Made by a program: the position numbers and the translations under genes
Source of the DNA: Tridacna crocea
Lineage: Eukaryota > Mollusca > Bivalvia > Cardiida > Cardiidae
Direction: 5' to 3'
Assembly (NCBI GenBank): GCA_943736015.1
Contig: OX031060.1
Location: 2,314,001 to 2,378,000, forward strand
Length of the DNA: 64,000 nt
The notes under the pieces: generated by a model
The model's input: only the letters and a program-made list of their open reading frames with translations
What the model was told of the DNA's origin: nothing
Database searches by the model: none
In this document: positions 6,725 through 59,660 of the stretch, one piece after another
Position numbering within the stretch: position 1 is the stretch's first letter
Layout: each line of letters opens with the position of its first letter

Positions 6725-6924
6725 AGGGCCTGTATTCACCAACCATTCTTGAGAATATTCTTAGTCTTATTTTCCAAGGTTTTCTATATTTGTAAGTAAC
6801 ACAACTTCTAATTGGCTAAACCGAATGGTTTAGCCAATCAGAAGTTGTGTTACTTACAAATATAGAAAATACTGGAGAAATTAAGACAAAGAACATTCTT
6901 ATGAATGGTTGGTGAACATGGGCC
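6725..6924. mobile_element. palindromic MITE family D, copy 1
   Basis: The ends GGGCCTGTATTCACCAACCA and TGGTTGGTGAACATGGGCC are inverted. The centre is CTAATTGGCTAAACC/GGTTTAGCCAATCAGAAG, so the whole element is close to one 200-bp palindrome. Copies 2-4 lie at 8676, 25497 and 35410. Confidence 0.8.
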
Positions 6925-20000: not shown

Positions 20001-23000
20001 CTGATAAGATTATAAAATATGTATAACATGAGTATTCACTAAAAATTACACTCATACATGAATGTCATTCTCTCTACTACTGTTGACATTAGGAAAATGG
20101 GAGAAGACCCGACAATAAAAATTTTAGCGATTCATGGATACTGAAAATACATGTATGAAAGGGAGTCTGAATTAATATCATGCAGCTATTTATAAGCACA
20201 AAACCAAATTGTTTCAGTCATTCTTTATCTTTATACAAAGTTCAAAATTTGAATTATTCAGATTAATATGGCTTTGTCAGAACATAATTATGTAAACCTT
20301 TACAGAGCAATCAAAATTTAAATAATACGAAAACACTGAGCTTTTGAAAACATTTTGGTGAAAAGAATGCTGGTAATTATAATTTTCTTTTCTCCACACA
20401 ATACCCTTCTATACTTTCTAATACAAATTCCACAATTTTTAACAACTTGTCAATTTGAAATGCTTTCAATTTGGACAAGTCTCAGATTTTGTTGTCAGAA
20501 AAAAAGTTTCCACTTTTCTGAAGATTAATGCCTGTCAGTGCTTTGAAATTAGCTCAAATTCATTAAATATTGCTCCTGTGTGTATTTTTGCATAGTGATG
20601 TCCTGGAAAAAAAGAACTGTAATGCAGACATGGAACATAAGTATGTGATGTCATTAGAGATTAGTGAACGAACTAACATAATTTCAAATGTTAAGGTTTT
20701 AATGAAAGTCTGTCATTGGTATTCAGTGTTGGATAAATAAAATGATGTTAATTTGCCCCATTTAGAGATTGCTTTTTGCAGTAGTTAATAATGAGTTACT
20801 ATTCCTTGTAACTGTCTTTTATATTTGGGTTTTCTTTCTGATCATTAGTGTTTCAGAATGACCCTCTAGCCACCACTTCAAGTTTTGTCAATGCGGTATT
20901 TATCCCATTTTTTGTGGATCACAATTTGGGATCAATCATAAAGATGTGCTGTAGTCATTTTGCAGGCAGATCATGACCTACTTGTATCATTTGAAGTTTA
21001 ATTTCAAGGTCATGAAATACGAGACTAGTATGACCATTCGATATTTGGAAGTAATGGTTTTATGGTTTATAGTAGGGCAAGGGTTAAAAAAAAACAAGTC
21101 TGAAGTTCATCTATTGCTAATCATAAAGAATACAAGTTATTTGACTATGTTATACCAATTTCATCTGTTGAAATTAACTTTTACTACATTATTGCAAAAG
21201 TACTTTTCCCCTAGATGTATGACTTTCGATATGTAAGACTGTAGTAACTCAAGTTACTACAGTCTTGCACTATTTTTTTTCTGAAAAATATTACAATTCC
21301 AGTGCAATACAGTAGTAACTCATATATGTCCATGTATCTCATAAAATACAACATGTTTCCTATTTCTTTTGTTTTCTGTAGCCTTTGTATGTAAAAATAA
21401 GAGTATGTTGAAATTTTGTTCTTTCAAATATCGAAAATGATAAAAAGAGAACGTTTTTTCCCTCTCCTGTAAAATTTTCTGAAACAGACTTACTACAGTC
21501 CTGCGTTGAACCCTCGAAATGACTGTGGTAAAATTAAGATGACTCTCAAACGAGAAAAAAAAACATGATGGAGCAGTATCATCATGTATAATGCCACTGC
21601 TTCACCAAACGACAAAATTGTAGACTGGCCAAAATTGAAAGCATTTGCAGTCGACAAAATAATATTTTAATGTGACTGAAAAAATTAAACTTGGTTTGGC
21701 AAGCATAGAAAACATTGTGGGAAAAGGAGAAGATGCTGGTTTACCAGCATTTTCTCCTTTTCCCAAATTTTTTTCAAAATACTTCTTTCTCAGAGTAGTC
21801 AAGTCGGGATTGTGTGGTAATGGGTTAGAGAGACATCAAATGTACGGTTGAAGAGAAAAGATGTGCCACAATTGTTTGATTTCAAGCATTATTTATTCTT
21901 GCATTATAACAATTTTTCTGTACAAACAAAAAGGATAGTAAAACTTTGCTGATGAGCTAATTTAGTCCTGGAGACCACATTTTCTGTCCTGTACACTTAG
22001 ATCCGTATTGAAAAAATTGAGGGAAAAGGAGGAACAACTTGTAATAAGCTATTCCTTTGGTCACCATGTTTATACCCCTGCATATGTTTTCGGGGGTATA
22101 CTGGAATCAGCCTGTGTGTCTGTCCGTCCATGTGTCCGTCTGTGTACAAAATACCAGTAATTTTGTGTCGCGAACTCCTCCTACAGTTTTCCTTCAATTG
22201 TTTTGAAACTGCATATATACTGATCATATATTGAAGATTTGCAATAGGCAATTTCCAAGTGTCAGCTCTTCTTGGTTGAGGAATTATCTCCCCTTCAACT
22301 TCACACTTTTTTCTGTCAAAGTGCTGGCGGGGGTATAACTCTTTACCACACAATCCTACTTTTAACAATCCTGAAAAAGAAGCCTTTTGAAAACATTGTG
22401 GGAAAAGGAGAAAATGTTGGGAAGCCAACATTTTCTCCTTATCTCACAATGTTTTCTATCCTTTCTAAACTAAATTTCATTTTTTTCAGTCACATTTATT
22501 TTGTCGTCTGCAGATGCTTTGAATTTGACCAGACTGAAATTTAGTCATTTGGTAAAGAGTTAAGTCGCATTCAGTGAAAGCTCTAGTTTCATCTGTGCTC
22601 TTTTTAGAAAAATAAGACAGCTTTGATTTACCGTGTTGTATAAAGTTTTCAGTGTTGTATACTGCTAAGTTGTTGTGGATTTATGAGAAAATAAATTTTA
22701 CACTTTGTTACAGCTGATTTGTTGATACAAGAACCTCCAGATAGAGAAGGTAGAAGAGTACCTATTACAGTATGTTTGGGCTCCAATCCTGACCCCAACA
22801 GAGCCCGTGTAGATGTAAGTGCAGTTATGTTTTTGTTCATTCTAGGGATGGCAACGGTTAGTAAATTTGCTAACCGGTTAACCGTTCAATCTTTCGATCG
22901 GTTAACCGGTTAACCGAACGACCATGTAAAAACATTTAAGATGAAGGTACCTGCACGATATGTCAACATTGACAACCGGTGCGTGAGTAATGCATTACCG

Positions 23001-26000
23001 TGATGTTTACTATTTCTGTAATTTAGTGCAAAAGACGGCCAATCTATTGACGATCTCTCACTCTCTCGGCAATAAAATAATTTTCCCACAATAATTTCTA
23101 TAGAGGACTAGAAATTACCAGGCTATTTCAGTGTTTCCACAACGCAAATTACTGCGTAAATCACCTATTAGAACTGAAATTCACGTAAAAAAAGGTTTGG
23201 TTTCACGTCAGACCTCACGTTGGAAAGAAAAAAAAACAGTATCTGCTTAACTTGTGTAAAATACCAGGATTTGAAGTTACTTGCTACCCATTTTGATGAA
23301 TTATTGTCAAATCAGGCGGAAATGCCTATCCATAAATTAAAAAAATGCTCGATGCAAGAAACACGGAAACCCATGACATAACAAAATGTTCCTTTCGACA
23401 TTGTCCGATCAGAGTCACTTTAGATCGTCTTTTCAGCTTTTTAATGATTTTAAGCAGTAAATTTCCATAGGTATATTAATAACAGACTTTAGTGCTGCAT
23501 CAAAAGAAAAAATTAGTGGGATCACTGCTATTTACAACTTCAAAAAATATACAAACAGAATCATACAGATGATGGTATGGTTATTGATCGTCAAAAAAAG
23601 TAGCTATCGCTAAGTGATCGGGTGTTAGCCATCGCCCAAACGACAGGTTCAAATTTTAGACTCTCCCAAATTCAAAGCCTCTGCACTATACTATGATTTT
23701 CGAAGATACTTATCGAAGTGAAAATGAAGAACGAAGAGAAACTGCTATGCCTGCTAGAACACAGAATGATTGACTTTATAAATTTCAATCCCTCTTACGC
23801 TAATTGGTCAATCCATGCATATATTTGATTAGGGGCGGGTACTTAATGAAATAATCCAAGCAAATCAATTAGGATAAGCAAGTGCCTTTGATCCAAAGAG
23901 GACACGTGTTTGACTGTTTATTATCGGAGACTGGGGACTAATTAGCGAATTAACAATGTTTAATATTGCAAAGACATGTCAAACTGTATATCACACCTTC
24001 GCCGGGTCTTGGTGACATTGTATGTGCGTATGACGCAGTTTTGGTTGTCAGAACCGGCAAAGTTAACTTCGTATTTTTTTCATTATAATGATTATTTGGG
24101 TAAAATTTTGATAATATAGGCTTATATTTGTTTCTGGTTAACCGGTTACCAATTTCCTAACCGGTTAATCGGTCATTCAATCGGTTGACCGGTTAACCGT
24201 TGCCATCCCTAGTTCATTCTAATTTTTGAAGATACATGTAGGTGATAGAATGGATTTTGGTTAGAGTAAAGAGAATTCATTGTATTGCCCATGTTGAGAG
24301 TGTTGTAGGTGACAGATGTGGCTGGAATGAAGTTATATGTCTGTAACAGGGTAGGGAGCAATGTAGAAAATTAAGAAAATGCTGGTTACTAGTTATATTT
24401 TTTTCAAAGCCTTCTTATATAGGGTTGTTGATACACGAGATTGGTTGCAAAAGGGTCTTATAAAGAATGTAAAAAATAGATAAGCAGTTTGATTCATGTC
24501 ATAAACAAAATGCTTGTTTTTTTTTTCTGAAATTCAAATTTTATTTCTCTAAAATTCAAATTTGTATATCATTCCTTAACTATGTACTTAACAACAAATT
24601 TTGGACTGGAGCAATTTGAAAGCATTTGCAGACAACAAATTAAATGTAGCTAAAATGATGATTCTTCCCTTTAATCCATTACCACTCAATCTTTTGACGC
24701 CCTTGAGAAAGAAGCCTTTTGAAAACACTGTTGGAAAAGGAGAAAATGCTGGTAACCAGCATTTTCTCCTTTTCCAACAGTGTTTTTCTACCCTTCCCAG
24801 AAAAAAATTCTATTTTTCAGTCACCTTTATTTTGTCGTCTGCAAATGCTTTCAATTTGGACCAGTCCAAAATTTTCTCGTGTGGTAATGAGTTAAAAGGG
24901 TAAAAACATTGTGGGGGGAAAGGAGAAAATGCTGGTTACCGGTATTTTCTCCTTTCCCCATGATGTTTCCAGATGCTTTCTGTGTCATGAGATGTGAAAA
25001 CAAGAAATTGGATGGTAAAGGGTTAATTCATACCCGCCAGGGGAGAAAATTACAGCAGATGACTTGAAAAACATCCATCTGGAATATGCAAAATCTATTA
25101 GATTTTATCAATGTAAAGGCATTGTTGCAAAAAAAAAAACCAACAGTTTCTCATGCAGGGCATTTAATCTCTTTGCCATGTGTATTATAATGATATAGTG
25201 TAATGACATTTTAGCCAAATCATTTTGTGACTCGTACATTCTTGCCATTTTGTAATGTACGATGTTGTATTGATGTTTCATCCAAAGTATGTCTTGGCTC
25301 AAACATTTTTGTCCCATACAATTCTGTCAGGTATAACGCTGTGGGCAGAAATGAAAATGATTTCTTTTTACGTAAGTGAATTAATTATATTTGTTTACAG
25401 AAGTGTGCAGAAGTACCAATTGGTTCACTGGCTGTGAGTGGAAAAACTAAATGGGATATACTGGATAACATTATCCGTAAAATATTTAAGGTAAGTGAGG
25501 CTTATTCTTCAGAATTTTGTCAATGTGAAAGTAACAGAACTTCTGATTGGCTAAACCAGATGGTTTAGCCAATCAGAAGTTCTGTTACTTTCACAGTCAG
25601 AAAATCTTGAAGATTGAGACAAAGAATGCCCTTAAGAATGGCTGGTGAATACAGACCCAGGTATTAAAATTACTTACATTACAGCACTGCCTGACCTACA
25701 GATACACAAAGGACAAATATGAAACTTTATAGGAAACATTGATATTAGCTGTGAAAAACCATAATGGAAAAAGGAGAAATAACTTGTGCAAAACATGGTT
25801 CCATATTTTCCACAATGTTTTTTCAAGCCCAACTACTGCCTGGGCATATAGGGTTACAATTGTATAGAATTATAATGGATGAATGCATGTTACATTTAGG
25901 GTCCTTAACTGTACATTGTGCTTTAGCATTGCATTTTATTACAAAAAAATGTGAAAATGTTCTTTTTTAAACATGTTTTAAAAAACCCTTACAAATATAA

Positions 26001-29000
26001 CCTAATGTGTTATCCCATTGAAGATTTCTCCCCCTTAACCCATTACCACACGAAAACATTTTGGACTGGTCCCAATTGAAAGCATTTGCAGACGAGAAAA
26101 TAAAGGTGACTGAAAAATAGAAATTTGTTCTGGGAAGGGTAGAAAACACTGTGGGAAAAGGAGAAAATGCTGGTTACCAGCATTTTCTCCTTTTCCCACA
26201 GTGTTTTCAAAAGGCTTCTTTCTCAGGGGCGTCAAAAGTAGGGATTGAGTGGTAATGGGTTAACTCTTTGCCACACAAGAACATTTTAGACTGGTCCAAA
26301 TTGAAAGCATTTGCAGATGACAAAATAAATGTGACTGAAAAATTGAAATTTAGTTAGGGAAGGGTAGAAAATATTGTCGGAAAAGGAGAAAATGCTGGTT
26401 ACCAGTATTTTCTCCTTTACCCACAATGTTTTCAAAAGGCTTCTCTCTCAGGGTCGTTAAAAGTAGGGATTGTGTGGTAAAGAGTTAATACAATGTTGCC
26501 AATTTTATGTCTTGATTTAATTGCATTGATTGCTGAAAGCTTTAAAAGGTATGATAGGCTTGTTACTTATGTAAATGACTTGAATCAAGCATCTTGTTCA
26601 TAGGTATTAAAACGTGAATTTATGTTTTAAAAAGAAAAGCATTTTTTTTTTTCAATTATCTACTGCAAAATGCTTAGTGAACTCTACCAAACTACAGAGA
26701 CTATACTAAATTTAAAGCATTTTGCAAACGACAAAATGAACATGAATCAAAAATTGAAATTTGATTTGGAAAGGGTAGAAAGCATTATGGGAAAAGGAGA
26801 AAATGCTGGTTTCTAGCATTTTCTCATTTTCCCGCAATGTCTTCAAAGCCTTTCTTTCTAAGGGTTGTTAAAAGTCGGAATTGCGTGGTAAAGACTTAAA
26901 AGTAGACGTAACTTTTCATTCCAGGAATATGTACTGCGAATTGACCCGGTGACAAATCTTGGTTTGAGTGCAGAAAGTGTTTTCTCATACCATATTGGTG
27001 ATATCGTACGTACCAAAGATGCAGAGGTCCCCGAACTTCTTCCTATTGGCTATCTGGTAGGGGACACCATGCAGATAGGGATCTGTTTAAAAGGTAGGAA
27101 ATACTCTTTGTAGATGAATGCTGCCCAAACCGAACATTCGGAGGGCTTGTCAAAATTTCAAAACTTGTGCAACTAGAAATTCCACACATTCTGACCTTGG
27201 ATATACACTCTTTTATGTTTTGTGTATACTGTATGATTTATATTTTGGCCTAAAACAGCTGTAACTCTTTACAAAATGACAAAATTAAAGACTTGTCCAA
27301 CTTGAAAGTATTTGCAAGTGACAAAATAGGTGTGACAATTTCAAAGATTGTTTTGGGAAGGGTAGAAAACATGGGGGGAAAAGGAGAAAATGCTGGCAAA
27401 GAGCATTTTCTCCTTTGCCCACAGTGTTTTCAAAAGGCTTCTTTTTCAGGGTTGTTAAAAGCAGGGATTGTTTAGGAAAGGGTTTAATTAAAGCTGTAGT
27501 TGGATTTTTTTTCCTCCTTACATAACATGATTGTTTTTTTGAGGGGATTTTTGTGAACATTGTGGGAAAAAGAGAATTTCAATTTTTGAGTTACATGTAT
27601 TTTGTTGTCTGCAAATGCTTTCAATTTGGACCAGTCTAAATTCTTGTTTCATGAAGAGTCAATAAGTGTCAGATATCTACAACCTGTCTTAGAAAAGAAT
27701 CAAGATACCATTATTATTTATCCCAGGTACCAAACAAAACAGTGTAGACTCTCTTGCGTTTGAGACTCTGATCCCCAAGTCCATCGTACAGAGGTACATT
27801 TCCCTGCTGATGGAACATCGTAGAATTATACTGTGTGGTCCAAGTGGGACTGGAAAAACATACCTTGCTCAAAAATTGGCCGAACATCTTGTGTTGAGGT
27901 AAGGATTTCAATAACCCTTAAGCTTTTATGTGCGACTCACTGACCACATTGTGTGGTCCAAGTTGGACTGGAAAAATATACCTTGCTCAAAAGTTGGCCG
28001 AACATCTTGTGTTGAGGTAAGGATATCATTAACCCTTTGGCTGCTAAGCACGACTCACTGACCTTTTGCGGACAGTGCAGTCTGATCTTGGATCTACACT
28101 GTCCAATAAGGAGATACTAATCCCCATATCATACCTCTGTCATAACATTATTTCAGTTCTACTATAATATGAATATTTTTATTCCAGTTGATTAGCAGGA
28201 ATGTGGAGAAATTTCTTGTTTGATTCCCTAACTCTTTACCACAAAATCCGGACTTTTAACGACCCTGGAAAAGAAAGCCTTTAAAAACATTTTGGGAAAA
28301 GGAGAAAATGCTGGTAACCAGCATTTTCTCCTTTTCCCACAATGTTTTCTGCTCTTTACAGAACAAATTTCAAATTTTCAGTCACTTTCATTTTTTCTTC
28401 TGCAAATGCTCTCGATTTGGACAAGCCTAAAATATTGTTTGGTAATGAGTTAAGATGTTTCTTATTTGATTTCCTCAGGTACAGGGAGTAGCCGTAGATA
28501 TTTCATCAAGATCCAAATTCCATTGGACTTAGATATGTTTTTTAGTGTGCAAGAAAATTAATTACTCTGCCACTGATTATTAGATCATAAGAAAAGCTGT
28601 ACTGGTAGAAAGTGGGGTTATAGGAGCTATATACCCTAGATCTAATTTGCTATTAGTGTTTATGACCGGACATCAAAGTTGTAGAGCTCAAAAACTAGCC
28701 TTATAATATCTGTTAAGTGTTGGCATGGTTGCTATAGACTATAAAGTTGAAAATCTGTTCTTTGAAAATATTGATCACTTTTTCAACACATCACTTTTTC
28801 ATATGGATCATATTACATTATAGTTGGTAAATAAATATTTATTTGCAAAATTAAATTTTCTTTTTTTTTTCGTGCAAGTTTTCATAACTACATTGTATAG
28901 CTTCATCATTTAAGTTGTCAGTTTGGTTCTGAAGGCAACATGAAATTAAAATAAATTCTTAAAGTGCTTTTCACAACTATTACTATTGCATTGTAGCCAG

Positions 29001-32000
29001 TTTAGTTCAAAGATCAGACAGCATATTGTGATCTTTGATCTACGCTTTCCACTTTACTGCAACATTCTAGAAAAAAGTAACTTTGAAATTGCAATTTCAG
29101 AAATAACCTTTTTTCTATCATGGTTTATCATTCAATAAACCACAGGTGTGAGTTATGAGGCAATATATAGCCCAAGAGGTTTATTCATTGCAACTCATAA
29201 CTCACTACATATTATATGGAAAGATAAACCATGATAGAAGATTATTTTGATTTTAACATTACCAACTCTGAATGAAAAGGAAAACAAGTTCATATTTAGA
29301 GTAAATAAAAAAGCAGATGGAGATTATGCTCCATTGAATAACTTACTTTATACAGAATGATGTCACTTTATACAGAATGGTGTAAATCTTATCACGATTT
29401 CTTTGCACTGCGTTTATACAGCCAAATACATGTGTTATGTTAAAATTTAACCCTTTACTTCATAGATGCTCATTTCTACGCATTGCTTGTAGGAGCCTTT
29501 GGAAAACATTGTGGCAAAAGGTGAAATTGCTCGTCACGAGCAATTCCACCTTTTGCCACAATGTTTTTTATGCTATCAAAAGGTGTCATATACACATAAG
29601 AAACAGCTTCATCTTTGCTGTTATTTAGGGTGAATTAGAAATACCATAGAAATGCCTCATGGGGTAAAGGGTTAAGTTAGCAAGTTGTCAGATGCATTAA
29701 GTAAGTGCTTAGGAGAAAATTCTGTTGACTAGCAATTTTCCTAGAATGTTTTCTAAAGCTTTCTTTCATAGGGTCATTTAAACTAAGGATTGTTATACAG
29801 GCATGATTCATGTATTATTTCAGATCAGGGAAGGAGTTGACAGCTGGCTCTGTGGCTACATTCAACGTGGATCACAAGACCGCCAAAGAATTACGCCAAT
29901 ATCTTGCGAACATTGCAGAACAGTGTGAGAACACAAGCATCGGAGAGCTTCCGAGTGTGATCATCTTGGACAATTTACATCATGTAGGGTCCTTGGGAGA
30001 AGTGTTCAATGGGTTCCTTAGTGTGAAATACCAGAAATGGTAAGATAGATATATATAGGATTTGACATAAGTTGGCTTTTGAGATAAGATTTTATTAACT
30101 CGTTACCAAACGACAATATTTTAGGCTTGTCAGAATCGAAAGTATTTGCAGACTACAAAATAAAAGTGACTAAAAATTTGAAATTTGTTTTGTGAAGAGT
30201 AAGAAAAGATTGTTGGAAAAGGAGAAAATGCTGGTTACTAGCATTTTCTCCTTTTCATACAATGTTTTCGAAAGGCTTCTTTCACAGGGTGGTCGAAAGT
30301 AGGGATTGTGTGGTAATGGTTTAACTCTTTACCACACGACAAAAGTTTAGACTAGTTCAAATTTGAAGCATTTGCAGACGACAAAATAAAAGTGACTAAA
30401 AATCTGAAATTTGTTTTGTGAAGGGTAGAAAACATTGTGGGAAAAGGAGAAAATGCTGGTTACCAGCATTTTCTCCTTTTCTCACAATGGTTTCTAAAGG
30501 CTTCTTTCTCAGAGGCGTCAAAAGTAGGGATTGAGTGGTAATGGGTTAAAGAAGTCTATTTTGTCGTCTGCAAATGCTTTCAATTTTGACAAACTTAAAA
30601 TTTTGTTGTTTGGTAATGAGTTAACCTTGCTTTAACGGCTCATATTACAGTAGCCAGTCTACCTACCTACACTTGTATTTCCTGGCTTTCTCACAACAGA
30701 AATAGCACAGCTTAATTTCCAAGTCTCTTGCTACTATTTTTCATTATTTGTAGGCAGGGTATTGCAGACAAAACCTTGTTAGCATGTTATGATAGATTTA
30801 CAGCACTAGAGGGTTCATTAGGGTTTGGTAATTAAAGTTACAATTGACTGGTACTTGTTTTCATTATGGTTATTGTTTTCATGACATTTCTCATTTCAGT
30901 CCTTACATTATCGGAACCATGAACCAGGCCACTTGCTCAACAACCAATCTACAACTCCATCATAATTTCAGGTTGGTTTGAAACTTTTTCTTTAACCTTT
31001 CAGGACACAATCCGTAGTTTTAACAGTGCTGTGAAAGAAAACTTTGAGAACATGTGAGCCACATTTGATTTGTTGTTGGCAGACAGTTTCAATTTGGTTG
31101 TATCTAAAATTTTGTTATTAATTTTGAAGTTATGTTCTCAGTTGAAAAAGAAACGTGGGGTTTTGTTTTCTCGGGCTGTAACTTTCTCATAAAGTGGAAT
31201 CCCTGAATAATGCTGCTGTAGTCTGGAGCCATGTTTGGCAACAGCATTATATCTGGGGTTGAAAATATAATACTGATTCCCCTCCCCCACCACTACTAGC
31301 AAATGATTCACTGATGAGTGCCCGAACTATAGCATTAACTCTTTACCACACAATCCCGACTTTTAACGACCCTTGGAAAGAAGCCTTTTGAAAACATTGA
31401 GGGAAAAGGAGAAAATGCTGGTAACCAGCATTTTCTCCTTTTCCCACAATGTTTTCTATCCTTCCAAAAAAAAAATTCAATGTTTGATTCACATTTACTT
31501 TGTCGTCTGAAAATGGTTTCAGTTTCGACCAGTCCAACATTTTGTCATGTGGTAAAGGGTTAACTCATTACCAAATGACAATATTTTAGACCGGTCCAGA
31601 TTGAAAGCATTTGCAGACGACAAAATGAAAGTGACTGGAAATTTGAAATTAGTTTTGTGAAGGGTAGAAAACATTGTGGGAAAAAGTGAAAATGCTGGTT
31701 ACCAGCATTTTCTCCTTTTCCCACAATGTTTTCAAAAGGCTTCTTTTCCAGGGGCGTCAAAAGTAGGGATTGTGTGGTAATGGGTTAATTAATTACTGTT
31801 GTTTTCCAATATATTTGGACAAAGGTAAATAATCCCCCCAAAAAAACAATTTTCTGAAAATTCTGGAAGTTAGGATCTTGAATTCTGGGTAAATGAAATG
31901 GTAAGTTTCAGGAGTGTGTCTAAAAGGATAAAGATAAACTCTTGCAAACTTATGCATACTAGCAGTCGATTTAGATCTAGCCCAAATACCAAGACAAAGA

Positions 32001-35000
32001 GATGCCTAAAAAATTTACAAACTTAATTTTTTACGAAGTTATCTTGGAAATATAAAGATTACATGTAATATTGTTCATTGTTTTCCACAGATGGGTGCTA
32101 TGTGCCAATCATATGGAACCAGTCAAAGGTTTTCTTGGTCGATATTTACGGAGAAGACTAGTGGAAGCAGAAGTAATGACCAGTCTAAGAAACAATGACT
32201 TGAATAAGATAATAGACTGGGTACCCAAAGTTTGGTTGCACTTGAACAAGTTTTTGGAAACTCACAGCTCATCAGATGTCACAATAGGTAAGTATAAGTT
32301 GCGGTCCAGTTCAAAGCTTTACTACAAAGACCCGAGTTTTAACCCATATCTTACTTAACCCATTACCAAACAACAATATTTTAGACTGGTCCAAATTGAG
32401 AGCATTTGCAGACGACAAAATAAAAGTAACTGAAAATTCGAAATTTGTTTTGTGGAGGGTAGAAAACATTGTGGGAAAAGGAGAAAATGCTGGTTACCAG
32501 CATTTTCTCCTTTTCCCACAATGTTTTCTAAAGGCTTCTTTCTCAGGGGCGTCAAAAGTAGGGATTGTGTGGTAATGGGTTAATTAATAAGTGAAATGAA
32601 ATTTCTAACCTATTGTAAAAAACACAAATTTTTGTGTCTCACAGAAATTTCGTGGGGAAAAAAAAAGATTTAGTCTTAACCCTTTACCACACAATTCTGA
32701 ACTTAACAATCCTGGGAGAGTAGCTTGCGGAAAACATTGTGGGAAAAGGAGAAAATGCTGGAAACCAGCATTTTCTCCTTTTCCAACTATATTTACTACC
32801 CTATCAAAAAAGAATTTGCGCCATTTGAACCACATTGAAATTGTCATCTGCAAATGCTTTGAATTTGGACATGACTAAAATTTTGTATCTTGTGAGCAGT
32901 CTGATCTTGATCTACAAAGTCTACAGGTCCTTGAGTTGCACTCGGCATCCTTAGGGTTAACAGCCCTCAGGAAGAAGGGTTTTGAACACATTGCAGTAAA
33001 TTGAAAAGATACCAGTAACAAGCATCTTCCTCTCTCCAGTTATGTTTTCTCTGCAAAAAGACAAATTCAAACAGTTTGGCAACACTGTTTTATGTTATAT
33101 GCAAATTCTTTAAATTTGACAGGACGGATAAAATACAGTACATGGAAATATGAAAGACAGGATCATGATAAGTGTGTTGAAGTTTCAGTTAGAGGATGTG
33201 CAAGTTTGATATTATTGAACTACAGAAATTATGTAGAGATTTTGCTTGGACTAAGATTGTTCCTCAAGCTCTCTTTGAAGTTGAAAATGTGCCATATTCT
33301 GGCCACTAAGGTTTGCTTGTACTTCAACATTCCCTGATTATGTTTCAGGTCCCAGATTGTTTCTATCTGCACCAATGGATATCGCTTCATGTAAAATCTG
33401 GTTTACTGATTTGTGGAACTATTCTATTGTACCATATTTACTGGAGGCGGTCAGAGAGGGCCTGCAGGTAGGTCATATTTACTGTCTATATATCTGTCTG
33501 TGTTTCTCAGTTCTGTTCTCAAAAAATCTTTTTTGAGTCATAAATCGTATTACTTATATCATATTGTTTAACCCTTTACTACACAATCCCGACTTCTAAC
33601 ACCTCTGTGAAAGAAGCCTTTTGAAAACATTGTGGGCAAAGGAGAAAATGCTGGTAACCAGCATTTCCTCCTTTTCCCACAATGTTTTCTTCCCTTCCTA
33701 AAACAAATTTCAATTGTTTAGTCACATTAATTTTGTAGTCTGCAAATGCTTTCAATTTGGATAGTCTAAAATTTTGTCGTTTGGTTAAGAGTTAAGGTTC
33801 AATACCCAGTTGAGGCAAACTTCCTTTCTGGTGATTTTTTCGCCTCTCACGTCTGATGCGTGTGAGAAAGTAATCATTGACTTGAAAAGATAGTTATGTC
33901 TGTACTGGTGTGAGAAACCAAGAAAACACGTGCTGGATGTATTTCCCTCATTCTTTGGACCCTAAAAATATCTCTTTTTAACTCTTTCCCAAACAAGCCC
34001 TTGTTTTTACGTGTCTTCAGTACAAGTCTTTTGAAAACACTGTGGGAAAAGGAGAAATTGCTCGCAACGAGCAGTTTCTCCTTTTCCCACAATGTTTTCT
34101 ACCCATTTGGACAACTTTCTGCCATTTTTATCAAATTTGAAATTGTCGTCTGCAAACTCTTTCAGCTTCGAAGAGTCTACAATTTGTCGTTTGGGAAAGG
34201 GTTGATTAAATCCCTGCAAAAGGAATGTTTGCTGGGGTATATATACTTCAAGTCGTTACCACACAATCCCTACTTTTGATGACCCTGAGAAAGAAGCCTT
34301 TAGAAAACATCGTGGAAAAAGGAGAAAACGTTGGTTACCAGCATTTTCTCCTTATCCCACAATGCTTTCTACTCTACAGAAACAAATTTCAAATTTTCAA
34401 TCAGGTTTATTTTGTTGTTTGCAAATGCTTTGAGTTTGGACAAGCCTTTTGTCGTTTGGTAAAGAGTTAATTAAATCCCCGAATTTTTTGCTGGGGTATA
34501 TATATTTTAACTCATTAACACACAATCAATCCATACTTTTGATGACCCTGAGAAAGAAGCCTTTAGAAAGCATTGTGGGAAAAGGAGGAAATGCTGGTTA
34601 CCAGCATTTTCTCCTTTTCCCACAATGCTTTCTACTCTTCACAAACAAATTTCAAATTTTCAGTCACGTATGTCTCTGTGTGCATCTGTGTGTCTGTCTG
34701 TGTACAAATAATTGCCTGTTTCTGTCAAAGCGCTGGCGGGGGTATTATGTTACATTCACTGACCACTCTAGTTTTACATGTATTACTTTTGTTCCTAGGT
34801 TTATGGAAGAAGAGCACAGTGGGAGGATCCTTCTGATTGGGTAATGGAAACATTCCCATGGACTTCTGGGAAAGATGGTGAACAGGTGCTCTTAAAGATA
34901 AGACAAGAAGATGTGGGATATGACTCTATAGGACTGTCGTCTTCAGAGAACAGCAGTCCAAAAATACAGACTAAAAATAAGGAAGAGATTACTGTGAATG

Positions 35001-35035: not shown

Positions 35036-35087
35036 TAGTTACCGTGACAACTATTTAAATGTGGTGATTATCACGTAGTGTTTATAG

Positions 35088-35305
35088 ATTAAGTCTTTAC
35101 TTAGTAATTTATGTTTCTTGGATCCTATGTATGCATTTGCAAAAACTTGTAGAAAACGAGAAAATGCTGGTCACCAGCTTTTCTCCATATCTTTCTTTGT
35201 TTTCCATCTTTATAAGGATGATTTTCATAACCTGCACCATGTTTGGTTTGTCTACAAATCCTTTCAGTTTGGACAAGTCCAAAATTTTGTTGTCTAGTAA
35301 GACTT
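35088..35305 (-). repeat. degenerate TTAA-A MITE after the NAV stop codon
   Basis: AAGTCTTTACTTAGTAATTT, GAGAAAATGCTGGTCACCAG and GTCCAAAATTTTGTTGTCTA. It may lie in the 3' UTR. Confidence 0.6.
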
Positions 35306-35409
35306 AATTATTATTATCATACAGTGTTTTTATAGTTAAATGGTTAGAGATGTGATAATTTGTATTTAAAGATACCATTTTATTCATGCATGTACGTATA
35401 AAGATCACA

Positions 35410-35833
35410 GGCTCTTAAATTCACCAACCATTCTTAAAAATTGTCTTAGTCTTATTCACGAGAACTTTCAAAATTTCAAAGTCCAACACAAATTCTAATT
35501 GGCTAAACCCTTTGGTTTAGCCAATCAGAAGTTGTGTTTAACCCTTTCCCAACCAAGCCCTGGTTTTTACGTGTCTGCAGTAAAAGTCTTTTGAAAACAC
35601 TGTGGGAAAAGGAGAAATTGCTCGTAACGAGCAATTTCTCCTTTTCCCACAGTGTTTTCTACCCTTTTTTAGAACTTTCTGGGATTTTTCCCCAAAGGTA
35701 AAATTGTCGTCTGCGGACTCTTTTGGTTTGAAGAGTCCAAAATTTGTCGTTTGGGAAACTGTTAATTGTAAATTTATAAATCTCCAGTATAAAGACAAAG
35801 AATATTCAGAGAATGGTTGGTGAATACAGACCC
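35410..35833. mobile_element. palindromic MITE family D, copy 4, host of a nested TTAA-B
   Basis: GGCTCTTAAATTCACCAACC at the left, TAATTGGCTAAACC/GGTTTAGCCAATCAGAAG at the centre, and GAATGGTTGGTGAATACAGA at the right. The element at 35538-35765 interrupts its right arm after AGAAGTTGTGT. Confidence 0.85.
35538..35765 (-). mobile_element. TTAA-B MITE nested in family D
   Basis: TTAACCCTTTCCCAACCAAG to GTTTGGGAAACTGTTAA. The perfect core is GGAGAAATTGCTCGTAACGAG. TTAA flanks both sides inside the D arm, so this element is younger than the D copy. Confidence 0.9.
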
Positions 35834-35915
35834 AGATTTTTCCATTTTTCATTAGTGTATATATTTTTGTTTATAGACTATGAAGGCCATGCATGTCATC
35901 ATCCATTACTGTTGT

Positions 35916-36144
35916 TTAACTCATTACCACACGAGAAAATTTTGGACTGGTCCAAATTGAAAGTATTTGCAGACGACAAAATAAAGGCGACTGAAAAAAA
36001 GAAATTTGTTCTGGAAAGGGTAGAAAACACTGTGGGAAAAGGAGAAAATGCTGGTTACCAGCATTTTCTCCTTTTCCCACAGTGTTTTCAAAAGGCTTCT
36101 TTCTCAGGGGCGTCAAAAGTAGGGATTGAGTGGTAATGGGTTAA
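35916..36144 (+). mobile_element. TTAA-A MITE, full-length (CACTG variant)
   Basis: 229 bp, TTAACTCATTACCACACGAG to GAGTGGTAATGGGTTAA with perfect arms AACACTGTGGG/CCCACAGTGTT. It shares TTAA with the TTAA-B copy that follows. Confidence 0.92.
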
Positions 36145-36368
36145 CCCTTTCCTAAATGACAAATTTTAGACTGTCCCAAACTCAAAGCGTTTGCAGATGA
36201 CTATTTTGAATTTGATGAGAATGGCAGAAAGTTTACTGATAGGCTAGAAAACACTGTGGGAAAAGGAGAAATTGCTCGTTACGAGCAATTTCTCCTTTTC
36301 CAACAGTGTTTTCTAAAGACATGTACTGCAGACACGTTAAAACCAGGGCTTGTTTGGGAAAGAGTTAA
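36141..36368 (+). mobile_element. TTAA-B MITE, full-length, abutting
   Basis: TTAACCCTTTCCTAAATGAC to GTTTGGGAAAGAGTTAA. Core GGAGAAATTGCTCGTTACGAG, with one GGG/CAA mismatch. Confidence 0.9.
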
Positions 36369-36420
36369 GACTGTAGCAATCATCTATTTCTGCTGTTTGA
36401 TACAGCAGGACATTACTTTA

Positions 36421-36653
36421 GGTAACTCTATACCACACCAGAGAAATTTAGACTTGTCTAATTGAAAGTATTTGCAGACAACAATTTATATGTAACTCGG
36501 CCAAGGAAATTTGTCTTTGGAATGATAGAAAATATTGTGGGGGAAAAAGGGGGGGAAAATGCTGGTTACCAGCATTTTCTGCTTTTCCCATAGTGTTTTC
36601 AAAAGGCATTCCTAGTGGTCGTTAGAAGTCAGGATTGTGTGGTAAAGGTGTAA
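36421..36653 (+). repeat. TTAA-A MITE, diverged
   Basis: GTAACTCTATACCACACCAG to GTGTGGTAAAGGTGTAA. The left arm has an expanded GGGGGAAAAAGGGGGGGAAAA tract. Confidence 0.72.
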
Positions 36654-36685
36654 GGTGGTTGCTTTCTGAATTATTGGCACTCTTT

Positions 36686-36884
36686 TTAACCCGTTACCAC
36701 ACAATTCTAACTTCTAACTACCCTTAGAAAGAAACCTTCTTGGTAACAAGCAGATTCTCCTTTTGTCACCATGATTTTCTATCCCATCATAGACAAATCT
36801 GACCTTCCAGCAACATTTGATTTTTTGTCAGTAAATGTTTCCCTTTGAATCTGTCAAAAATTTTGTCTTGTCAAAAAGAGTTAA
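36686..36884 (-). repeat. TTAA-A MITE missing the left hairpin arm
   Basis: TTAACCCGTTACCACACAAT, then AGAAACCTTCTTGGTAACAA directly at the tip, with right arm GCAGATTCTCCTTTTGTCAC. The end is AAAAAGAGTTAA, shared with the next copy. Confidence 0.72.
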
Positions 36885-37109
36885 CTCTGTACCAAACGAC
36901 AAAATTTTAGACCTGTCCAAATTGAAAGCCTTTGCAGACGACAAAATAATTGTCACTCAACAATTGAAACATAACTTTTGAAGGAGTAGAAAACATTGTT
37001 GGCAAAGGAGAAAATGCTGGTTACCAGCATTTTCTCCTTTTCCCACTGTTTTCAAAAGGTTTTTTTTCCCTGGGTCTTTAAAAGTCTGGATTTTGAGATA
37101 TAGAATTAA
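36881..37109 (+). mobile_element. TTAA-A MITE, full-length, abutting
   Basis: TTAACTCTGTACCAAACGAC to a decayed right end GATATAGAATTAA; the hairpin is nearly perfect. Confidence 0.85.
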
Positions 37110-37181
37110 GGCCCCTTAATTAATCATATATTGTTGGTAGCTGTTCAATGTGTCCTGCAATATATATACTGTAGGTTTCAG

Positions 37182-37410
37182 TTAACCCTTTACCCCATAA
37201 GGCATTTCCATGGTATCTCTAATTGACCTTAAATAACAGCAAGGATGAAGCTGTTTCTTATGTGTATATGACACCTTTTGATAGCATAGAAAACATTGTG
37301 ACAAAAGGTGAAATTGCTTGTGACACGCAATTTCACCTTTTGTCACAATGTTTTCCAAAGGCCCCTACAAGCAGTGCATAGAAATGAGTATCTATGGAGT
37401 AAAGGGTTTA
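37182..37410 (+). mobile_element. TTAA-C MITE, full-length (matched GTGACA variant)
   Basis: TTAACCCTTTACCCCATAAG to GGAGTAAAGGGTTTA. The arms read GTGACAAAAGGTGAAATTGC and CACCTTTTGTCAC, a compensated change relative to the copy at 29447 (GTGGCA/TGCCAC). Confidence 0.88.
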
Positions 37411-37460
37411 GGAAAGGTGTTTTATGAGAACTCAGAATGTAATTGTTAGTGTCTATTTAC

Positions 37461-39185: not shown

Positions 39186-39425
39186 TAAGCCCATCTGGGT
39201 AGCGTGGTGGTTAACGTATGTGACTTTGGTACCTGGTGTGTGCGAGTTTGATACCTGATTGAGGCAAACATCCTTATTGCTGATTTTTCACCTGTCATAC
39301 TTGAGAGAAAAATATTCAGTGACCAGGAAAGAAGGTTGTGCAAGTACTGGTGTAAGAGAGCTGGGACACACATGCATAGGTACATTGACCGCCATTATGT
39401 AACCCAAGCTGTTTGAAATGGTGTT
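39186..39425 (+). mobile_element. tRNA-derived SINE, nearly full copy
   Basis: An A-box-like GGTAGCGTGGTGGTTAACG and a B-box-like GAGTTTGATACCTGATTG lie about 45 bases apart, as in RNA polymerase III tRNA promoters. A body shared with 33793-33967 follows (TTGAGGCAAACATCC, GTACTGGTGTAAGAGAGC). The tail runs into a TTAA-C element. Confidence 0.68.
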
Positions 39426-39652
39426 AACCCTTTACCCTAAAAGGCATTTCTATAGTATCTCTAATTGACCCTAAATAACAGCAAGGATGAAGCTGTTTCT
39501 TATGCGTATATGACACCTTTTGATAATATATAAAACATTGTTGCAAAAGATGAAATTGCTCGTCACGAGCAATTTCACCTTTTGCCACAATGTTTTCCAA
39601 AGGCTCCTACAAGCAATGCGTAAAAATGAGTATCTATGGAGTAAAGGGTTAA
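39424..39652 (+). mobile_element. TTAA-C MITE, full-length
   Basis: 229 bp, TTAACCCTTTACCCTAAAAG to GGAGTAAAGGGTTAA. The core GAAATTGCTCGTCACGAGCA is intact; the left arm carries two unmatched changes (GTTGCAAAAGATG). Confidence 0.88.
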
Positions 39653-39962
39653 ACTCAAATACAATCCTGTCTTTTCCCGTGAGGAAAATAAGTGCTAAAG
39701 GCACATTTAGTGCATAAGTAAAAAACTAATTCACTTTTTAAGGATGCCTCAATTTACCATATTACGGTAGCTTTGGAAACAAACTAGGCAGTAGAGAACT
39801 TTGAAGATGTTTTTGTAAATATGGATCATTTAATAATTATTTACTTAAAAATTAGTACGCGGAAAAATATCGAAGCAAAATGATTGGCTGCTTATTATTG
39901 GATTATCTGTGTTTGCTTCAATATGTTCATGTATGGTTTGCTGCTTGAAAGAAGGCAATCTG

Positions 39963-58510: not shown

Positions 58511-59118
58511 CGTTTATCTGTAAAAGAACTTCTACAATGTTTACTGCACATATGAACGTTTGTTGACATTTCTTCTTAGTTTCATTTTCTCTATATTCAT
58601 GTAGTTTTAACAACTGTATGCTTAGTACTGAATGGGTTACTAGATCTCATTTTTTGTGTGAATTTTTTTTGTAAACATCTAAAAAATTGTAAATCTTGTA
58701 ACAAATGAGCCCTGTGAAAAGGGAGCTTAATGCATCTGCAAATAGTATTGACCCATGTCAGCCCGGGCATTAGCACAGGCCAACATGGATCGAAACTTTC
58801 TGCTATTTGTCAATTTTCTGAATGTCACAGGACCATTATGGACTCAATTTTATGTGATGTCTTGCTTGATGTAAATGCATTGAAATTATGTGATGTCTTG
58901 CTTGATGTAAATGCATTATAGTGGTGTATTAAGCCCCCCCCCCTTTGTCGTAGCTTGGCTCAAATACAATTTAAAAGTATTTCTTTCACCTTTTACTAAA
59001 TAATCCTAAATTTTTATTTCTCTTACGAAAAGAGCTTTTGAAAACATAGTTGGAAAAGAAATTTTGTCCTTTTCCTTCAAAGTTTTCCAACCCTGTGCAA
59101 GAGAAATCTCACCATTTA

Positions 59119-59340
59119 GCTCTTTACAACAAACTTTGGAGTTTTAATGACCCTGAAGATGAAAACCTGTAGAAAACATTGTGGGAAAAAGGAGAAAATG
59201 TATGCAGCATTTTCTCATTTTTCCCACAATGCTTTCTACCCTGTCTAAGACATTTTTCTCCATATGAGCCTCATAAAAGAAAAACTTTGTTTGCAACTGC
59301 TTTCAATTTTGATCAGTTAAACATTTTGTTGTTTGGTGAA
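59119..59340 (-). repeat. TTAA-A MITE, shortened hairpin, block 2
   Basis: AGCTCTTTACAACAAACTTT to TTTGGTGAAGAAATG. It is the duplicate of 44742-44970. Confidence 0.62.
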
Positions 59341-59660
59341 GAAATGACATTTAATCTGTTTTCTAAAAGAATAGATGCGTCTTAAACATTGTCATATGAC
59401 AAAAGATTTAATAATGTTAGCTAATAATGAAACTCATCCTGTACATTTAGTTATTATATTATTACTGTGTTCAACATTTTTATCATGTCATCACAACAAC
59501 TTCATAAAGTGTGGTGAATAAAAAAGGAATTATCATTATAAAAAGTGCTTCTGTTTTATTCTAATTGTCCAGTTTGATAGTGGATATTATTTTTAATCCT
59601 TTACCAAACATTCAACGGTTTTGTTTGTGGATAATGTTTGTAAACAGTAATATCTCTTTT

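Follow-up and report, generated by a model that had tools for sequence, protein, structure and literature searches.

Piggybac-like miniature inverted-repeat transposable elements (MITEs) are short, use a TTAA target, carry terminal inverted repeats that start with CC and reach high copy numbers. The 64,000-nucleotide stretch of the bivalve Tridacna crocea analysed here (contig OX031060.1, positions 2314001-2378000, from a 1.05-Gb assembly of 31 contigs; hereafter the window) is packed with copies of an element of about 225 bp that sits at TTAA and resembles the piggyBac-like MITEs, as these are generally described, in target, shortness, CC-starting terminal inverted repeats and high copy number. 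Unlike them, it has a strong central hairpin, which evolves more slowly than its flanks, and the origin of matched changes in the two arms of this hairpin is the subject of the present analysis.

Two described systems are close to this palindrome. Work on Saccharomyces cerevisiae describes quasipalindrome template switching with recurrent homogenization of the arms and recurrent, reversible flips of the spacer, spacer inversion occurring mostly without arm conversion and the two being combined in one of ten events (PMC8604942). A second report describes template switching that creates and maintains RNA hairpins, with compensatory double changes and loop inversions arising from one replication event (PMC8794818). 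The Tridacna palindrome resembles the yeast quasipalindromes described there in its matched arm changes beyond chance and phylogeny and in its spacer inversion, and it resembles the hairpins of RNA genes in double changes and a loop inversion that a single event could produce. It differs from the yeast cases, where arms of at least 7 bp lie in protein-coding genes (with events in 39 proteins; PMC8604942), in being one 33-bp transposon palindrome with a 1-nt spacer, and from the RNA genes under selection treated in PMC8794818 in consisting of inserted transposon copies, presumably under little selection. Among the titles and abstract openings of the papers listed by the literature searches, nothing was found on arm covariation or spacer flips in MITE hairpins.

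Inherited matched subfamilies and independent decay account for most of the pattern seen in the arms. The remainder carries footprints that are best explained by a known mechanism, template switching, and we regard the independent decay of inherited hairpins combined with rare template switching between arms as the probable history of the family. After insertion, the two arms mostly decay independently; now and then, during replication or repair of the palindrome, the polymerase would switch to the other arm as template, and such a switch would copy a change into the other arm, invert the 1-nt spacer (T to A, C to G), or both. A first-pass annotation of the window, which had held that the copies change in both arms at once, is right on the kind of process and wrong on its weight.

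Element family and samples

The main family (226-bp model) has its hairpin at model columns 103-169, a near-perfect fold-back of two 33-bp arms around a 1-nt spacer. With a profile, 61 full-length copies were located in the window; random stretches totalling 200 kb yielded 113, a density that extrapolates to roughly half a million copies in the genome. Shortness, terminal inverted repeats and high copy number, as used to recognise MITEs, were all found in the main family. Of 92 window and random copies, 69 have a TTAA near the left end, 63 near the right and 48 near both, as a duplicated TTAA target implies. We take the elements to be non-autonomous DNA transposons, their length suggesting that they are non-coding and mobilised by a foreign transposase. 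Queries A and B proved to be one family in opposite orientations; the C family has flanks unlike those of the main family and the same hairpin plan. The first-pass annotation gives no definition of the subfamilies A, B and C that it names. A scan of the window against Rfam at gathering thresholds gave no match, and neither did an exact search of viral contigs with one 22-nt stretch of the arm.

Full-length copies numbered 291, of which 254 were kept after row dropping, and non-overlapping copies were reduced from 356 to 284; locus L001 was dropped as a duplicate of the window. Loci L002-L030 were fetched by BLAST and chosen partly by their similarity to one copy with C/G at pair 26, so that tree counts were repeated without them and arm-versus-flank ratios including them were not relied on. 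Pairs 3, 8 and 26 were excluded from the pooled pair tests.

Matched and mismatched pairs

In all six copies cited by the first-pass annotation, the hairpins and the named matched arm changes are present where it placed them. They stand among the following copies of the window.

22334..22559, minus strand: full copy with matched C>T at pair 5 (GTTGG/CCAAC) and three other pairs mismatched; arms 22389-22420 and 22425-22456
24670..24891, minus strand: full copy with matched G>T at pair 22 on the C/G form (CTGTTGG/CCAACAG), no arm mismatches; arms 24722-24753 and 24755-24786
26039..26264, plus strand: full copy of the main family, C/G at pair 26, no arm mismatches; arms 26142-26174 and 26176-26208, spacer 26175
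29442..29676, minus strand: C-family copy (GTGGCA/TGCCAC), spacer G in family orientation; arms 29503-29534 and 29536-29567
32359..32584, plus strand: full copy, T/A form, no arm mismatches, TTAA at both ends
34247..34466, minus strand: copy with spacer A relative to its flanks (inverted), 18% of pairs mismatched
35537..35761, minus strand: TTGCTCG-subfamily copy matched at pairs 3, 8 and 26, no arm mismatches; arms 35593-35625 and 35627-35659
35920..36145, plus strand: full copy of the main family, C/G at pair 26, no arm mismatches; arms 36023-36055 and 36057-36089
36145..36369, plus strand: TTGCTCG-subfamily copy matched at pairs 3, 8 and 26, 3% of pairs mismatched, adjoining the copy at 35920-36145
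37181..37415, plus strand: C-family copy with matched GTGACA/TGTCAC, spacer G in family orientation; arms 37289-37321 and 37323-37355
39423..39657, plus strand: C-family copy, spacer C in family orientation

These were selected cases, and mismatches outnumber matched changes. Between 22390 and 37350, the 24 usable copies hold 16 matched non-consensus pairs and 81 mismatched pairs; over the whole window (56 usable copies of the 75 found) the figures are 31 and 230, and 7 of the 56 have mismatch-free arms. The two cited C-family copies stand outside these counts, their flanks being too different from the main model, and mismatches occur in cited copies too, at three pairs of 22334-22559 and at 6% and 3% of the pairs of the two C-family copies. 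Among 284 copies and 8395 pairs, pairs 3, 8 and 26 excluded, 1059 one-sided changes, 70 matched doubles and 53 unmatched doubles were counted. The premise that independent mutation leaves mismatches was thus sound, and mismatches do occur, 1059 one-sided and 53 unmatched double changes standing against the 70 matched ones.

Per copy, 11.5% of arm pairs are mismatched in the window (50 copies) and 14.8% in the random stretches (102 copies), and the proportion climbs from about 5% to 22% as the flanks diverge; the arms therefore decay. In 20 disjoint pairs of flank-close window and random copies, the mismatch between a copy's own arms (0.064) compares with a difference of 0.050 between the same arms of the two copies, and with the similarity-selected copies added (48 pairs) the values are 0.049 and 0.043. 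Frequent correction would make the two arms of a copy more similar to each other than either is to its counterpart in close relatives; this is not observed, and bulk arm-to-arm correction is excluded.

Inheritance of the pair 26 states

In 152 window and random copies, partner positions share mutual information of 0.24 at pair 3, 0.25 at pair 8 and 0.36 at pair 26, and no other pair exceeds 0.08. The 43,943 exact 61-nt hairpins of the genome divide at pair 26 into 31466 T/A, 9111 C/G, 1525 C/A and 1841 T/G, an odds ratio of about 102 and the strongest covariation found; this is the CACTG/CAGTG change. On a tree built from the flanks only (220 rows, 147 columns), the 17 C/G and 83 T/A copies from the window and random stretches need 4 changes, compared with a mean of 16.0 (range 11-17) when states are shuffled. 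With the similarity-selected copies (49 C/G and 127 T/A) again 4 changes suffice, against 42.7 shuffled, as they do for a wider set of 49 C/G and 137 T/A rows that includes the 89 L002-L030 rows and ten pair 22 copies. Each one-sided copy brings roughly one further change (12 in all when four states are scored, 8 of the copies being one-sided). Because 4 changes suffice where shuffling gives 16.0, the conspicuous pair 26 difference is an inherited lineage marker. The tree holds copies above the flank threshold, none of them with the matched TTGCTCG states, and pairs 3 and 8 stay unplaced on it.

This is what is expected if subfamily phylogeny and independent mutation explain everything, with no arm-to-arm process, and the abundance of one-sided changes noted above fits that reading equally well; the evidence of the next two sections makes it unlikely as a full account. 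The first-pass annotation had proposed that covariation between paired positions be compared with that expected from subfamily phylogeny: at pair 26 it follows the flank phylogeny and the claim fails by its own measure, while outside the subfamily pairs matched doubles reach about 1.8 times the level of arm swaps and unmatched doubles do not exceed it.

The same tree bears on ectopic gene conversion between copies, which would move whole hairpins and place matched states in unrelated flank lineages. Six of ten fetched copies (L052-L055, L057 and L059) do combine a perfect 61-nt core with flanks 17-26% off consensus, as such transfer could produce, and are perhaps young members of diverged subfamilies in which the hairpin was kept. 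However, the pair 26 states stay within flank clades, which exchange of hairpins would have scrambled, and we consider ectopic conversion very improbable.

Residual coupling between the arms

As a control for the remaining pairs, right arms were swapped between copies that carried the same mutation load and were alike in flank identity (2000 swaps). Matched doubles number 70 against 39.5±5.4 under swapping (284 copies; none of 2000 swaps reaches 70), and unmatched doubles show no excess (53 against 55.7), which phylogeny and independent mutation alone do not explain. The excess is present in the window and random copies alone (51 against 26.2), with pair 22 omitted (61 against 34.0) and at a flank identity of at least 0.72 (37 against 24.9; 5 of 2000 swaps). 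On the flank tree, 33 occurrences of matched doubles need 32 changes, and the 24 from window and random copies need 24, again contrary to a purely phylogenetic origin; at the available resolution, nearly all appear to have separate origins and not common lineages. They are also mostly private, 45 of 55 being unseen in the three flank-nearest copies. No gradient of coupling with distance from the hairpin tip was seen (inner pairs 14 against 8.5, outer pairs 47 against 28.2).

Candidate matched indels, namely a loss of identical pairs from both arms in two copies and a matched A/T insertion in a third, were not counted as evidence: on inspection, L025 has a deletion across the centre, L045 a disrupted arm and the window copy at 59115-59343 an insertion in an A run.

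Pair 22 allows the coupling to be counted genome-wide. For G>T on the T/A form, 1137 hairpins are changed on the left only, 1389 on the right only, 295 on both sides and 31466 on neither, whereas 50 both-changed hairpins are expected if the arms are independent (1137*1389/31466). An off-partner control, left position 22 with right position 26, gives 64 against 66.5 expected; because this control lies at expectation, the excess does not come from age differences, and phylogeny with independent mutation again falls short. Ten both-T copies among the matches listed (of the 295) have a mean pairwise flank distance of 0.268 and represent several lineages; together with five sampled copies, these 15 rows need 14 changes on the tree (shuffled mean 14.7). 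The three flank-nearest sampled copies of the window copy at 24670..24891 are all G/G at pair 22. Changes confined to one arm are about four times as frequent for G>T at pair 22 as for G>A at pair 6, a pair picked because the sample gave no excess there; the abundance at pair 22 may reflect old one-sided lineages or a site prone to mutation, possibly a hot spot of the slippage type that makes TTGTTG.

Expressed as the excess of matched doubles relative to one-sided changes, the share attributable to switching is, in order of size, about 0.6% at pair 6, about 3% in the pooled pairs and about 10% at pair 22. Switching at this rate falls far short of what would maintain matched arms. A new matched subfamily could nonetheless arise if a switch took place in a copy that is still mobile.

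Apparent inversion of the spacer

A template switch within a palindrome can invert the spacer, which for a 1-nt spacer would appear as T>A or C>G. Of the 165 main-family copies whose flank identity reaches 0.8 or more, 11 have A at the centre, 5 have C and 2 have G. The same changes occur in A/T columns of the arms at 1.07% (T>A), 2.8% (T>C) and 0.6% (T>G), so that T>A is elevated about six-fold in the spacer (11/165, P 3.6e-6), with no significant elevation of T>C (5/165, P 0.63) or T>G (P 0.24). The 92 window and random copies alone give A 8, C 3 and G 2 (P 4e-5 for T>A). On the flank tree, the 15 centre-A rows need 15 changes, all separate, and this excess is a further result that phylogeny and independent mutation leave unexplained. 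Poorly oriented older copies were set aside: a flank identity of 0.6-0.7 gives centre A in 14 of 51, a figure that misorientation has probably raised.

Among 16 copies of the C family, for which the family's own left flank set the orientation, 9 have C as spacer, 6 have G and 1 has T, and C/G transversions in the arms of this family amount to 5 of 413. Because the second family shows it too, the inversion reading is stronger than the arm data alone would make it. The arm-to-arm correction that the first-pass annotation gave as its first option thus survives as low-rate copying in replication or repair, as suggested by the residual doubles and by the spacer footprint in two families, and not as the bulk process, which is excluded.

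Several results weigh against decay combined with rare switching. At pair 6, 288 hairpins are changed on the left, 349 on the right and 7 on both sides against 3.2 expected (P about 0.04), and the apparent rate of coupling differs more than 10-fold between pairs 22 and 6; the both-T copies at pair 22 could include small lineages that the flanks do not resolve. The youngest copies (flank identity at least 0.8) have no significant excess of matched doubles (13 against 9.3; 216 of 2000 swaps), as expected without any arm-to-arm process. The flank tree has 147 columns only, and its independent-pairs test had only 2 supported pairs, which is too few. The C-family spacer needs 4 changes on its own flank tree against a shuffled mean of 5.0 (range 3-6), and lineages may explain part of its pattern. 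Copies with an inverted spacer have no fewer arm mismatches and are not enriched for matched doubles (P 0.80, from few cases), and the footprints of arm copying and spacer inversion were not seen together. Finally, the mutual information of pair 26 with its partner is 0.360, against 0.214 with the best other single column, which a one-column view of phylogeny does not explain.

A variant of the switching model would place copying and spacer inversion mainly in the transposition cycle, when the palindrome of the excised element would be extruded or single-stranded. Each jump could then flip or perfect the hairpin, matched subfamilies would come from single events, and the near-even C:G ratio of C-family spacers would record the number of jumps. 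We regard this variant as unlikely.

Possible constraint on the hairpin

Outside CpG-type sites, the arms diverge at about half the flank rate (0.027 against 0.055; 19 disjoint window and random pairs, P 0.0025). Selection for pairing, in which mobile copies need the hairpin or a double-stranded RNA and compensatory changes are driven in the source elements, was the other explanation offered by the first-pass annotation; it accords with this slower divergence and with the hairpin plan that the C family keeps despite its different flanks. The slower arms, however, could reflect a constraint on sequence in mobile lineages, which does not by itself mean selection on pairing. One-sided forms are abundant (1137 and 1389 at pair 22, 1525 and 1841 at pair 26), which suggests that mismatched hairpins spread too, and since most matched doubles are private to single inserted copies, selection would have to act over an implausible number of such copies and is not needed for these changes. 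As a driver of the matched changes, it is a possible but doubtful alternative to decay with rare switching; a constraint acting in mobile lineages remains compatible with the rate of the arms.

The central hairpin mostly evolves more slowly than the terminal repeats, although the ends are expected to be the most constrained part. Among window and random copies, four of five distance classes show larger differences in the terminal repeats than in the arms. Better conservation of the hairpin throughout was rejected, as in the closest class (11 pairs) the values are 0.018 for the terminal repeats and 0.041 for the arms.

Other features of the window

In the window and random loci, 16 of 182 pairs of adjacent copies are separated by no more than 8 nt, and several of these pairs appear to have one common TTAA. 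Such sites lie at 26264, 30325, 31559-31564, 36145 and 36880-36885 in the window, and in the random loci L031-L048, and new elements seem to insert at the TTAA of a copy already present. Positions 22843-24211 hold a 1.37-kb element, which we take to be hAT-like; its terminal inverted repeats read TAGGGATGGCAACGG, and an 8-bp duplication, GTTCATTC, flanks it on each side. A second palindromic family (..TTGGCTAAACC / GGTTTAGCCAA..), with an almost perfect fold-back and a spacer of a few nucleotides, occurs at 6770-6879, 25501-25618 and about 35480-35540. One exon-like stretch of the window gene was compared with the PDB and gave no match.

Significance

Palindrome template switching is known from reporters and from gene comparisons. 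With roughly half a million copies by extrapolation, one palindrome with a 1-nt spacer and flanks that can be aligned, the present family is a natural mutation-accumulation experiment, in which the rates of conversion per pair and of spacer flips would be measurable by position in a large eukaryote genome. Matched arm differences between MITE subfamilies are, taken alone, no evidence of selection or of correction.

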